Assembly (NCBI GenBank): GCA_016200325.1
Contig: JACQEZ010000019.1
Coordinates: 186,001-250,000, forward strand
Origin: Candidatus Manganitrophaceae bacterium
Lineage (GTDB): Bacteria > Nitrospirota > Nitrospiria > SBBL01 > Manganitrophaceae
Reading direction: 5' to 3'
DNA length: 64,000 nucleotides
Shown: positions 10,310 to 28,926 of the stretch, one piece after another
Layout of the letters: every line of letters starts with the position of its first letter
Position numbering within the stretch: the stretch's first letter is position 1
Made by a program: the position numbers and the translations under genes
The notes under the pieces: model-generated
Seen by the model: the letters and a program-made list of their open reading frames with translations, nothing else
What the model was told of the DNA's origin: nothing
Databases searched by the model: none

Positions 10310-11677
10310 ATGAAAATATTGATCATCGATGATGATCCTTCCAATTGCGAACTGCTGTCGATTCACTTTCAATATCAGAAATACACCGTCCAGACCGCGC
10401 TGACCGGCCGCGAAGGGCTCGAAAAGCTCAAGGCGTTTTCCCCTCAGATCATCTTTCTCGATAACCGGCTCCCCGACTTAAGCGGCCTCTCGGTCCTCAA
10501 AGAGATCCGGAAAATCGATGAGAATGCCTTCACGATCATCATGACCGCTTTCATCGACATGGATACGACGATCCAAGCGATGAAAGCCGGGGCGTTCGAA
10601 TATATCAACAAACCGATCAACATCGATGAGCTCGGCTCGGTGGTTGGAAAGATCAAGGGGATCATTACACTCCGGAGCCAGTCCCCGCGGCCGATGTTCA
10701 ATGAGTTCTCCGCCCCGAAGATCGGGATCATCATCGGCAAAACCGCGCAGATGCTGCAGATCTTCAAGACGATCGCCATTGCATCGGAGAGCAACGCGAC
10801 CGTGTTGATTGAAGGAGAGAGCGGCACCGGCAAGGAATTGATCGCCCGCGCCATCCACTACCATGGGAACTACAACACCCCCTTTCTCGGAATCAACTGC
10901 TCCGCATTGGTCGAAACGCTCCTCGAGAGCGAGCTCTTCGGCCATGAGAAGGGATCCTTTACCGGGGCGATCCAGAAAAAAGAGGGAAAGTTCGAAATGG
11001 CCGAGAACGGCACCCTGTTGCTCGACGAGATCGGGGATATGTCGATTCACCTTCAGGCCAAGCTCCTCCGTGTTTTGCAAGAACGGGAGTTTGAACGTGT
11101 TGGCGGGAAGGAGAAAATCAAAGCAAACGTCCGGGTCATCGCGGCGACCAATAAAAACTTAGAGGAATTGATTAAAGTCGGCAAATTCAGAAAAGATCTT
11201 TATTATCGCCTGAAAGTCATCAGCATCCGGGTCCCCCCCCTTCGCGATCGGATGCAGGACATCCCGCATCTGGTTCATTTTTTGATCAACAAAATCAGCT
11301 CCAACATGCACAAGCACATCACCGGCGTCTCCCCCAAGGTCATGGATGTCCTGATGGATTATCCTTGGCCCGGGAACATCCGGGAGCTGGAGAATGTGCT
11401 GACCCGGGCGGTCGTCTTAACGCGCGGCAATGTTATTCTGGAAGAGTCGCTCTCGCTCCTCCCGCTGACCCAGCCGCAATCGAACGGGGCCCGGAACATT
11501 ATCGCCCCTCTCTCGGAGATTGAAAGACAACACATTCAACACATCCTCAACCACACCCGCGGACACAAAGGGAAAGCCTGCCAAATTTTAGGGATCTCCA
11601 GACCGGCGCTCGACCGCAAAATCAAGAAGTACCAACTCTCCGATCCAATCAGTAGAACCTCTTCAGTAGAATTTTAA
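10310..11677 (+). CDS. NtrC-family sigma54-dependent response regulator
   Basis: The 455-aa protein has three domains in order. The receiver domain (1-120) has the acidic pocket DDD (7-9), phosphoacceptor D51 in IIFLDNRLPD and a conserved K near INKPI. The AAA+ sigma54-interaction domain (about 135-380) has GESGTGKE, GSFTGA (the GAFTGA loop with Ser replacing Ala), LLLDEIGDM and YPWPGNIRELENV. The C-terminal Fis-type helix-turn-helix contains GHKGKACQILGISRPALDRK. It activates sigma54-RNAP when phosphorylated. No histidine kinase lies nearby, so it is an orphan here. SD AGGTGG is 10 nt upstream. Confidence 0.95.
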   Translation: MKILIIDDDPSNCELLSIHFQYQKYTVQTALTGREGLEKLKAFSPQIIFLDNRLPDLSGLSVLKEIRKIDENAFTIIMTAFIDMDTTIQAMKAGAFEYINKPINIDELGSVVGKIKGIITLRSQSPRPMFNEFSAPKIGIIIGKTAQMLQIFKTIAIASESNATVLIEGESGTGKELIARAIHYHGNYNTPFLGINCSALVETLLESELFGHEKGSFTGAIQKKEGKFEMAENGTLLLDEIGDMSIHLQAKLLRVLQEREFERVGGKEKIKANVRVIAATNKNLEELIKVGKFRKDLYYRLKVISIRVPPLRDRMQDIPHLVHFLINKISSNMHKHITGVSPKVMDVLMDYPWPGNIRELENVLTRAVVLTRGNVILEESLSLLPLTQPQSNGARNIIAPLSEIERQHIQHILNHTRGHKGKACQILGISRPALDRKIKKYQLSDPISRTSSVEF

Positions 11678-20576: not shown

Positions 20577-20676
20577 TTCTATGGAAGCGACACAAGGTTG
20601 GGAAGGTCAGAAAGATTCGCTCGATCCGCAAGATCCGCCGGGTCCGCAGCGCAAGCTAGATGGAGGAGCTTCATCG

Positions 20677-21612
20677 ATGAAAGAAATCATTGGTAAAAGC
20701 GAGCCGATGATGGAAGTCTTCAAGATGATTCGACTCGCGGCCGATACCGATCTCTCCGTCATGATTATCGGAGAGAGCGGTACCGGAAAAGAATTGGTCG
20801 CCCGCGCCATTCACAATGCCAGCATCCGACGAAAAGGGGCATTTATTCCGGTCAACATCGGCGCCCTCACCCCCGACCTGGTGGCCAATGAGCTCTTCGG
20901 CCATGAACGGGGGGCCTTTACCGGCGCCCACGCCCAGACCGCCGGAGCGTTCGAGCGGGCCGACGGCGGAACCCTCTTCCTCGACGAGATCGGGACGATG
21001 GACCAGAAGACGCAGGTGACCCTGTTGCGGGCGATCGAGGACAAAGCCTTTTATCGGGTCGGCGGGAAAGATCTGATCCATGTCGATGTCCGCATCCTCT
21101 GCGCAACCAATGAAGATCTGCAAGCGGCCGTCCAAAAGGAGACCTTCCGCAAGGATCTCTATTTCCGGTTGGAGGGATTTATCATCCGGCTTCCGGCGCT
21201 TCAGGAGCGAAAGGAGGACATCCCTCTCTTGGCCAGCGCCTTCCTGGAAGAATATAACGAAAAATACAAGAAGGGTATCACCGATTTCTCGAAGGAAGCG
21301 ATGGATCTCTTCGTCAATTATCCGTGGCCCGGCAATGTCCGCGAGCTGAAGAATGTGATTCAGCGCGCGGTCCTGCTCACCCCCCGGAACATCATCACCC
21401 CCGAGTACCTCCCCCGCCGCTTTCAGCAGAAGAGCGTCCCGAACAATAAGATCGTCTTCGATGTCGGCACATCGCTGGGAGATGCCGAGAAAACGCTGAT
21501 TATTCGAACCCTCAAAGACCGCAAAGGGAACAAAACGGCAACCGCGAAGATCTTAGGAATCAGCCGGCGATCGCTTTACAATAAAATCCAACAATTGAAT
21601 ATCAAGGTCTGA
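20677..21612 (+). CDS. PspF-like sigma54-dependent activator without a sensory domain
   Basis: The 311-aa protein consists of the AAA+ sigma54-interaction domain (GESGTGKE; RGAFTGAHA as the GAFTGA loop; TLFLDEIGTM; YPWPGNVRELKNV) and a Fis-type HTH (GNKTATAKILGISRRSLYNK). No receiver, GAF or PAS domain precedes it. The start at 20677 is chosen because the activator domain conventionally begins at MKEIIGKSEPM and GGAGG lies upstream. An ATG at 20581 would add a low-complexity leader. Activity is probably set by partner proteins. A sigma54-like promoter (21801) and a receiver-like gene follow immediately. Confidence 0.9.
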   Translation: MKEIIGKSEPMMEVFKMIRLAADTDLSVMIIGESGTGKELVARAIHNASIRRKGAFIPVNIGALTPDLVANELFGHERGAFTGAHAQTAGAFERADGGTLFLDEIGTMDQKTQVTLLRAIEDKAFYRVGGKDLIHVDVRILCATNEDLQAAVQKETFRKDLYFRLEGFIIRLPALQERKEDIPLLASAFLEEYNEKYKKGITDFSKEAMDLFVNYPWPGNVRELKNVIQRAVLLTPRNIITPEYLPRRFQQKSVPNNKIVFDVGTSLGDAEKTLIIRTLKDRKGNKTATAKILGISRRSLYNKIQQLNIKV

Positions 21613-26641: not shown

Positions 26642-27850
26642 TCAAATGTGCAGCCCCTCCGGCACCGTCCTTCCCTGTTCAAAACGCTCCCCCGAGAGAG
26701 ACGTCAAATCGAGCGTCCGATATTTCCCTTCGACCATCAGCTCCGCCAATGCCTGACCGGCGGCGTAAGATTGCATGACCCCTCGTCCTGAGAAAGAGTG
26801 CGCCTCAAAGAGATTGCTCCGTCCCGGCACCCGGCCGAGGATCGCACTTTTATCGGGGGAGACCTCGTACAGACCGGCCCATCCGCCGACATATTTTAAT
26901 TTTTCAAAACCGCTTCCCCGCGCCCAAAGGCGCGGCCAGATCTCTTGAACGAAGAAATCGTACCCCTCCTCCTCGAACCGGTACCCCTGCGGCTCGGTCG
27001 GAACCGAATAACCGGCCAAGATATGATCGGCCTCAGGATGAAAGTAAAGCCCCGACGTATCGACGATCATTCCATAAGGTGAAAGATCGACCTCTTGGCT
27101 ATGAGAGACCGAGACCTGCCGGCGGACCGGAACGGAGGCGATCTCCCGTCCATAGGCGGTTGCAAGGCGCGGCGCCCACGATCCGGCGGCATTGACCAGC
27201 AGGCCGACCGAAAACGCCACGGTCTCCCCGCCCACCGGCAGCACCCCCTCTTTCAAAAATTGCGCTGTCTCCTCATCGGAAGAGATCGCACGGAGGTGGA
27301 CCGCTCGGACTTTATCCTGCTCTAAAGTAATCCGTTCCACGGCATGATGGTCGATCCAGACCACCCCTCGCTCGGTGGCGAGCCGCCGGTAGTGAAGCTT
27401 CAAAAGATTCGGATTGATCAAGCCATCGCGGGAGGAAAAGGTGGCTGCCGTCACCCCGTCGAGGCGGTCGAGAAAGGGATAACGCCGCTGTAGGTCGGCG
27501 GGGCTGAGCGCTTCAATGACGACCCCCCGCTCCCGCTGCAAGGCAAGCCGCCGCGACGCCCCCTCCCACTGCGCTGAATCGTAGAGCCAAAGATAACCCT
27601 TCTGCTGAAATCCGACTTCGGCAGCAACCTGCTCATAATAGGCAATCGACCGCATCCCCAAGTCGATATTGATCGGCTGCTCCCAGGTGGCGCGCACCCC
27701 GCCGGCATTCCGCTCGGTCGATCCCCACGTTCCGGCGAGATCAAGATCGACCACGCCGATCGTCCCCCCGCGCCGCTCGGACAGCGCCATGGCGATGCTG
27801 CTTCCGATAATCCCGCCGCCGATGATTAAGATATCGAATCCCCGATCCAA
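26642..27850 (-). CDS. FAD-dependent oxidoreductase (DAO / sarcosine-oxidase-like)
   Basis: The 402-aa protein begins with the dinucleotide-binding motif [19 protein letters not shown] and continues with the DAO fold: [11 protein letters not shown] near residue 45, VNAAGSWAP mid-protein, and the C-terminal [20 protein letters not shown]. The family oxidises C-N bonds in amino acids or methylated amines with oxygen or a quinone as acceptor. Start is TTG 27850 with GGAGGGG upstream; no ATG precedes the Rossmann motif. The substrate is unknown. Confidence 0.88.
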
Positions 27851-27954
27851 CCGCCCCTCCTCCCTCTCTCCGTCTTATCCGCCCCTGTCGTCCCGAAGCG
27901 CTCTCTTTCATTATATCCAAATTTGACCGACGGACCAATCGGGGACTGAAATGG

Positions 27955-27970
27955 TGGCATCGCACTTGCA
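27955..27970 (+). promoter_or_regulatory. Near-consensus sigma54 promoter facing a non-coding region
   Basis: TGGCATCGCACTTGCA matches TGGCAY-N5-TTGCA at every conserved position. Predicted start is near 27981. No gene begins within 400 bp downstream. The next gene (28387) has its own sigma70 promoter. Confidence 0.65.
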
Positions 27971-27980
27971 TTTTTAACAA

Positions 27981-28235
27981 CTCAATTGGAGTGACCGGCC
28001 GGTGATCGAGCCGGGTGGAATCGAGAGAAGCAGCTTCTTTTTCAATTCCACCCTGCGAGATCACCGGCTCATGAACCGATTTGTAAATTGTTCACAGTTT
28101 TTTTCCTTTGGTCGACCTGTATGCCAGGACATGCGGGAAGACCCAAGGGGAGGCCCCGCCGGAACCCCCCTTCACTCCGGCTGTTTCGGGTTCATCGAAC
28201 CCATGGGGCCTCCCCTTGTTGCGATTTTTCTTCTC
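27981..28235 (+). ncRNA. Candidate sigma54-controlled structured small RNA
   Basis: Two large folded parts follow the sigma54-like promoter. The first is GCCGGTGATC (27998-28007)/GATCACCGGC (28059-28068), a symmetric 5x5 internal loop, then GGGTGGAAT (28013-28021)/ATTCCACCC (28045-28053) and an apical GAAG/CTTC. The second has a 14-bp perfect outer stem (28144-28157/28205-28218) enclosing hairpins GCCGGA/TCCGGC (28158-28181) and GGGTTC/GAACCC (28188-28202), like a three-way junction. It is followed by TTGTTGCGATTTTTC, a possible terminator tail. No convincing ORF is present. Confidence 0.55.
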
Positions 28236-28343
28236 CTTCTCCTCTCCTTAGAGAGGCAGAAGCAGAGGGGCGGATCAACTTTAAAGCGCTAAACCGGCTC
28301 ACCCAAACGGTCTTTTTCCTCGCATCCCCCTTGGCCTTTCACC

Positions 28344-28371
28344 TTGACCTTTTTAAACGATCCGATATAAT
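28344..28371 (+). promoter_or_regulatory. Sigma70 promoter of the pseudopilin gene
   Basis: TTGACC (28344-28349), 16-bp spacer, perfect TATAAT (28366-28371). The predicted start is about 8 nt before ATG 28387, giving a very short leader without a clear SD. Confidence 0.65.
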
Positions 28372-28386
28372 CGCTCTCGCACTGAG

Positions 28387-28926
28387 ATGAGATGGAGCGC
28401 AGACGCGAGAAAGCCCATTTTTCAATCCTCCCCGGCGAAACAGGACGGTTTTTCTCTCCTGGAGTTGATGGTCACCCTCGCGATCATCTTCATTCTGGCG
28501 GCCACCGCCTTGCCTCTGACGAAAAACCTGGCCAGACGGGCCAAAGAAATTGAGTTGCGCCAGCAGCTTCAGACTGTCCGCGCCGCAATCGATGATTTTC
28601 ATCGGGACTGGAACCGCGACGGCGAGGCGCTGATCGGCGAGGCATGCAAAAAAAATAAGCTGACCTGCAAAGAGGTCAGCAGCGACAACGGTTATCCCAA
28701 AACCTTGGAGAACCTCCTCAGCGTGGAGCTGACGGGGGAGTTGAACAAGACGATCTGGAAATACCTTCGTAAGATCACGCCCGATCCAATCACGAAAACG
28801 GAGTGGGGCCTGCGCTGCTACGTCGATCCCCCCGACGCCGAGTTATGGTGTCAAGAAGACATCTATGACATCTATACAACCAGCAACGAGACGGCCCTCG
28901 ATGGAACCCGCTATCGCGATTGGTAG
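28387..28926 (+). CDS. Type II secretion/type IV pilin-like protein (GspG-like pseudopilin)
   Basis: The 179-aa protein has a 21-residue basic leader ending in G, then FSLLELMVTLAIIFILAATA, the classic prepilin-peptidase site with Glu at mature +5. The body is GspG-like: NGYPKTLENLL, ITPDPITKTEWGLR, a Cys pair, and YDIYTTSNETALDGTRYRDW, the calcium-loop-like C-terminus of major pseudopilins. It should be processed at the inner membrane. It is separated from core GspE/F genes. The next gene starts 15 bp later, so the two form an operon. Confidence 0.88.
   Translation: MRWSADARKPIFQSSPAKQDGFSLLELMVTLAIIFILAATALPLTKNLARRAKEIELRQQLQTVRAAIDDFHRDWNRDGEALIGEACKKNKLTCKEVSSDNGYPKTLENLLSVELTGELNKTIWKYLRKITPDPITKTEWGLRCYVDPPDAELWCQEDIYDIYTTSNETALDGTRYRDW

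Follow-up and report, generated by a model that had tools for sequence, protein, structure and literature searches.

A probable sigma54-dependent non-coding RNA gene with a conserved structured core in Candidatus Manganitrophus

A strong promoter that no gene directly follows raises the question of what is made from it. Such a case is found in the window, by which we mean the whole 64,000-nucleotide stretch of Candidatus Manganitrophaceae bacterium DNA that was analyzed. Here, the initial annotation had seen a sigma54 site matching its pattern at every conserved base, no gene directly after it, and a following gene with a TTGACC-N16-TATAAT promoter of its own. All of this is borne out, because TGGCATCGCACTTGCA (27955-27970) matches TGGCAY-N5-TTGCW exactly, and the next plausible gene starts only at 28387, 417 bp past the box. 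We propose that the locus is probably a stand-alone sigma54-dependent non-coding RNA gene of roughly 240 nt. The promoter and the folded RNA are kept throughout the genus while the surrounding DNA is not, so the product is very probably a real regulatory RNA that had not been described before. The features discussed below are collected in Table 1.

Table 1. Predicted RNA locus, its neighbors and the sigma54 activators of the window
Feature	Positions	Strand	Basis or remark
Sigma54 activator: receiver, Sigma54_activat and Fis HTH	10310-11677		Pfam
Sigma54 activator: Sigma54_activat and Fis HTH	20581-21612		Pfam
FAD-dependent oxidoreductase (DAO), upstream divergent neighbor	26642..27850	-	Pfam PF01266, E 2.6e-51
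Sigma54 (-24/-12) promoter TGGCATCGCACTTGCA	27955-27970	+	exact pattern match; predicted start near 27981
5' domain of predicted RNA	27981..28071	+	length constant (90-91 nt), sequence not
Linker, mostly unpaired; contains TTGTAAA and a U7 run (28098-28104)	28072..28109	+	conserved in alignments
Hairpin B: GGU/ACC closing stem, 3x3 internal loop, 8-9 bp stem	28110..28143	+	two-sided changes, three pairs
Hairpin C: 14-16 bp outer stem around two hairpins (three-way junction)	28144..28218	+	formed by 5/5 sequences
C-rich loop ACCCCCCUUCAC, first inner hairpin of C	28164..28175	+	candidate base-pairing seed; C run in 5/5
T-rich tail	28219..28240	+	possible weak 3' end, window species only
Sigma70-type promoter TTGACC-N16-TATAAT of pseudopilin gene	28344..28371	+	11/12 matches; kept in 5/5 loci
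Pseudopilin-like protein (N_methyl motif), downstream neighbor	28387..28926	+	Pfam PF07963, E 1.5e-7

The genome encodes rpoN (Pfam PF04552, E 1.4e-57), and TGGCAYN5TTGCW has 23 matches in its 4.2 Mb versus 3 for a reversed-pattern control. At several of the other sites, the genes behind the match resemble the usual sigma54 targets when judged by eye, among them flagellar rod/hook-type-like, FliL-like and pseudopilin-like proteins (assigned by eye, without Pfam). Both sigma54 activators that had been annotated in the window are confirmed by Pfam. At the present locus, an enhancer-binding activator would switch on sigma54 RNA polymerase, with transcription starting from about 27981. As for an activator-binding site, the 350 bp upstream of the sigma54 box contain no convincing conserved inverted repeat. 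Elsewhere, a further match to the sigma54 pattern (TGGCATTTTTTTTGCT, minus strand, near 1507-1522 of L012) has no ORF within 450 bp downstream, and an Rfam scan of that locus was empty.

By blastn and a covariance model, the locus was found in four of the five other genomes of the genus. Whether the promoter is present in related genomes had been set beforehand as a test that could refute the annotation, and the sigma54 box is present in all five loci: GGCAyYGCACTTGC is conserved while the flanking sequence differs, pairwise identity of the box is 81-100%, and the GG, the GC and their spacing are invariant. Wherever both sides of the locus are visible, the RNA has the FAD-dependent oxidoreductase on one side (reverse) and the pseudopilin on the other (forward). 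The fifth genome gave no hit; its completeness is 72%, however, and the orthologous pseudopilin is missing from it as well, so that little can be read from the absence. With the covariance model, every genome that carries the locus yielded a single copy, and the 98 genomes scanned from the order and class gave no match outside the genus except two weak ones (E 0.016 and 0.038), which we attribute to chance because the TTGTAAA linker and a correctly spaced sigma54 box are absent from them; no other homologue was found in those 98 genomes. Among the genomes searched, the predicted RNA family is therefore genus-restricted. A REP/MITE repeat or mobile element is ruled out by the single genomic copy and the identical position in congeners.

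By comparing the loci zone by zone, we found a conserved RNA core of about 150 nt (28072-28222), which comprises the U-rich linker, hairpin B and the branched hairpin C and lies 116-117 bp downstream of the sigma54 box in all five loci. Its pairwise identity (69-99%) is roughly equal to or higher than that of the oxidoreductase coding sequence (69-98%). Between diverged lineages, the 5' domain is 44-54% identical, compared with a shuffled background of about 43-48, and the spacer 3' of the core is at background with 40-48%; the sigma70 promoter beyond it again reaches 79-100% between pairs of loci. The main rival explanation concerns this side of the locus, since no intrinsic terminator is recognizable in the congeners: the pseudopilin operon might have two promoters, the sigma54 promoter being the distal one, and the structured region would then form the long 5' leader of the operon, acting as a cis element or attenuator. 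The locus does always lie upstream of the pseudopilin gene and in the same direction, and a sigma54 site also precedes another pseudopilin-like gene of the genome, at a distance of about 70 bp (L030). However, the conserved sigma70 promoter just before the pseudopilin would bypass any cis element, the spacer of 71-119 bp between it and the core is no more alike than background when diverged lineages are compared, and the sigma54 box is about 420 bp from the gene, which makes such a leader unlikely in our judgment.

The pseudopilin genes and the spacer also showed some peculiarities of single loci. In L005 (G004:C1:3191975-3192467), where the RNA core is intact, the pseudopilin is spread over more than one frame and contains one TGA; either a pseudogene or assembly indels would account for this. 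A pseudopilin paralogue of 48% identity is present at G000:C19:55466-55933, and four congeners also carry one. L002 contains an extra long imperfect inverted repeat (GTGAGGCGT...ACGCCTCAC) at 1588-1700 in the spacer after the core, which was not seen in the other loci.

The region 27981-28235 has a predicted folding energy of -123.5 kcal/mol, compared with -82.7 +/- 5.1 for dinucleotide shuffles (z -7.95). Two large folds had been annotated in it, and both exist in the window species, but they fared differently in the congeners. The first, a near-perfect two-stage hairpin (27998-28068), reaches z -7.1 on its own in the window species, whereas the 5' domain of the congeners gives z -0.7 to -1.7, a fold slightly better than chance, its identity is at or near background, and comparison of the congeners yielded no convincing consensus structure; being strong in one species and weak in the others, this stem is not a family feature. 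The second fold, hairpin C, is kept with compensatory changes, as is hairpin B, which the annotation had not mentioned; the stems, like the promoter, had been chosen in advance as the test in related genomes. In the core structure, 97.8% of the cells are paired, versus 37-64% in sliding controls, and four pairs have changed on both sides, versus a mean of 1.3 in shuffled alignments, where four was reached by 5 of 500. Because the sample consists of five sequences, three of them near-identical in the core, and the changes mostly set the window apart from the other loci, covariation is limited to few pairs, and we regard this comparative evidence for the predicted core as good, not overwhelming.

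The minus strand also folds strongly (z -6.3), and inverted repeats function as DNA as well, as would suit a core that is a protein-binding or chromosomal site at the DNA level instead of an RNA. But after correction of one misaligned base, the core has 178 paired cells out of 180 (98.9%) on the plus strand, compared with 165 on the minus strand; the plus strand pairs better because some of the pairs are G-U, and this preference favors an RNA transcribed from the sigma54 box. (The model-fitted realignment with two antisense matches was excluded from the results.) Moreover, hairpin B varies with compensation, and the core is single copy and keeps a constant spacing from the sigma54 promoter upstream of it, so that we give a DNA element very little credence.

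An RNA gene also requires that the region does not encode a protein. ORFs cross it in each genome, but none is common to all and indels disrupt the frames; with no shared reading frame, a protein-coding locus is ruled out. Neither a tRNA nor a tmRNA was found. The annotation had recognized no known family, and this is upheld against Rfam 15 (including Qrr, GlmZ, CrcZ and 6S), as nothing exceeded the gathering threshold in the window and local scans and the best sub-threshold matches had E over 4. The annotated T-rich tail does follow the stem in the window, beginning 6 nt past hairpin C, but it was not scored as a terminator, and none of the congeners examined has a U tract at this position. 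The tail is thus species-specific and the predicted 3' end tentative; from the sequence, we infer both its position and the transcription of the locus. Taken together, the annotated small-RNA reading is partly supported, with the promoter, the second fold and, in addition, hairpin B kept, and the first fold and the tail not.

In the predicted RNA, the 5' domain would evolve freely, and linker, hairpin B and branched hairpin C would form the conserved 3' core. How it would act is suggested by two observations: Hfq (PF17209) was found in none of the six genomes of the genus (controls positive), and the C-rich loop of hairpin C is present in all five sequences, reading AUCCCCCCCAAG in the congeners. 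From these, the simplest proposal is a trans-acting RNA that works without Hfq and, in a RepG-like way, pairs with G-rich sites. We put action in trans on mRNAs at about an even chance. Pairing would proceed via the C-rich loop, a potential partner for G-rich ribosome-binding sites, via the single-stranded linker, or via both; as a seed, the loop is a tentative candidate, and its C run has too many G-rich matches to discriminate targets without comparative data. The neighbors do not appear to be among them, since direct pairing to the oxidoreductase and pseudopilin mRNAs was no better than in the simple shuffles used as control.

Rather than pairing with mRNAs, the RNA might titrate or regulate a protein, in the manner of CrcZ-Hfq, RsmZ-CsrA or 6S-RNA polymerase. 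It would be large, stable and apparently sigma54-driven, and CrcZ, which acts on Hfq, is a precedent for this way of working (PMC4063720). However, no Hfq was found in the genus, neither repeated GGA loops nor CA motifs are evident in the core as read from the alignment, and no Rfam family matches, so we consider titration improbable.

Returning to the base-pairing RNA, the comparison of two close species points to a possible division of labor within it. In the pair G002/G005, the core is 99% and the spacer 90% identical, but identity is only 62-64% in the 5' domain and in the 120 bp that precede the box. The same holds from about -60 to +90 round the sigma54 box (window 27925-28071 v L003/L004), where identity between two close species is 62-64%, compared with 93% for the oxidoreductase, 99% for the core and 90% for the spacer, and the 16-bp box is kept. 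The block round the conserved promoter thus changes unusually fast between two close species. The 5' domain behaves as if it were a species-specific targeting or tuning module, an idea that rests on its 64% beside the 99% of the core and the 90% of the spacer. A modular, Hfq-independent, genus-specific and sigma54-switched RNA, with a fixed 3' core and a fast-changing 5' domain of constant length, is a speculative picture to which we lend little weight. In this picture, the C run of the loop could also vie with the C run of the outer stem for one G run, giving a two-state switch.

Sigma54-dependent transcription is known for CrcZ, and Qrr, GlmY and CrcZ/CrcY depend or act on Hfq. Like these RNAs of Vibrio (Qrr) and of Pseudomonas and Azotobacter (CrcZ/CrcY), and like GlmY, the predicted Manganitrophus RNA would have a gene of its own, read from a -24/-12 promoter, and the genome likewise encodes rpoN and enhancer-binding activators; unlike them, the RNA belongs to another phylum, has no Hfq found beside it and shows no sequence or structure match in Rfam. 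With 6S RNA it shares a highly structured form and a similar length, but it has no central-bubble rod architecture, has a sigma54 promoter and gives no Rfam match. In RepG of Helicobacter pylori, a hairpin presents a C-rich loop. Its site of action is a G-repeat in the leader of an mRNA (PMC8295292), and the two RNAs are alike in the hairpin-borne C-rich loop and in a bacterium without detected Hfq; they show no evidence of homology, however, and in Manganitrophus the loop sits inside a three-way-junction hairpin and the G-rich target is hypothetical. Sigma54-driven small RNAs are already a known kind, the quorum regulatory RNA of Vibrio fischeri being one (PMC10162802), and the Manganitrophus RNA would add to them a new family of narrow distribution.

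In the literature collection searched by full text, no paper mentioned small RNAs together with Manganitrophus. Regulatory RNAs in Nitrospirota have, to our knowledge, been little studied. A sigma54-controlled RNA in these manganese-oxidizing chemolithoautotrophs would be an entry point to their environmental responses, and its occurrence in a genus without detected Hfq would make it a test case for Hfq-free small RNA action.
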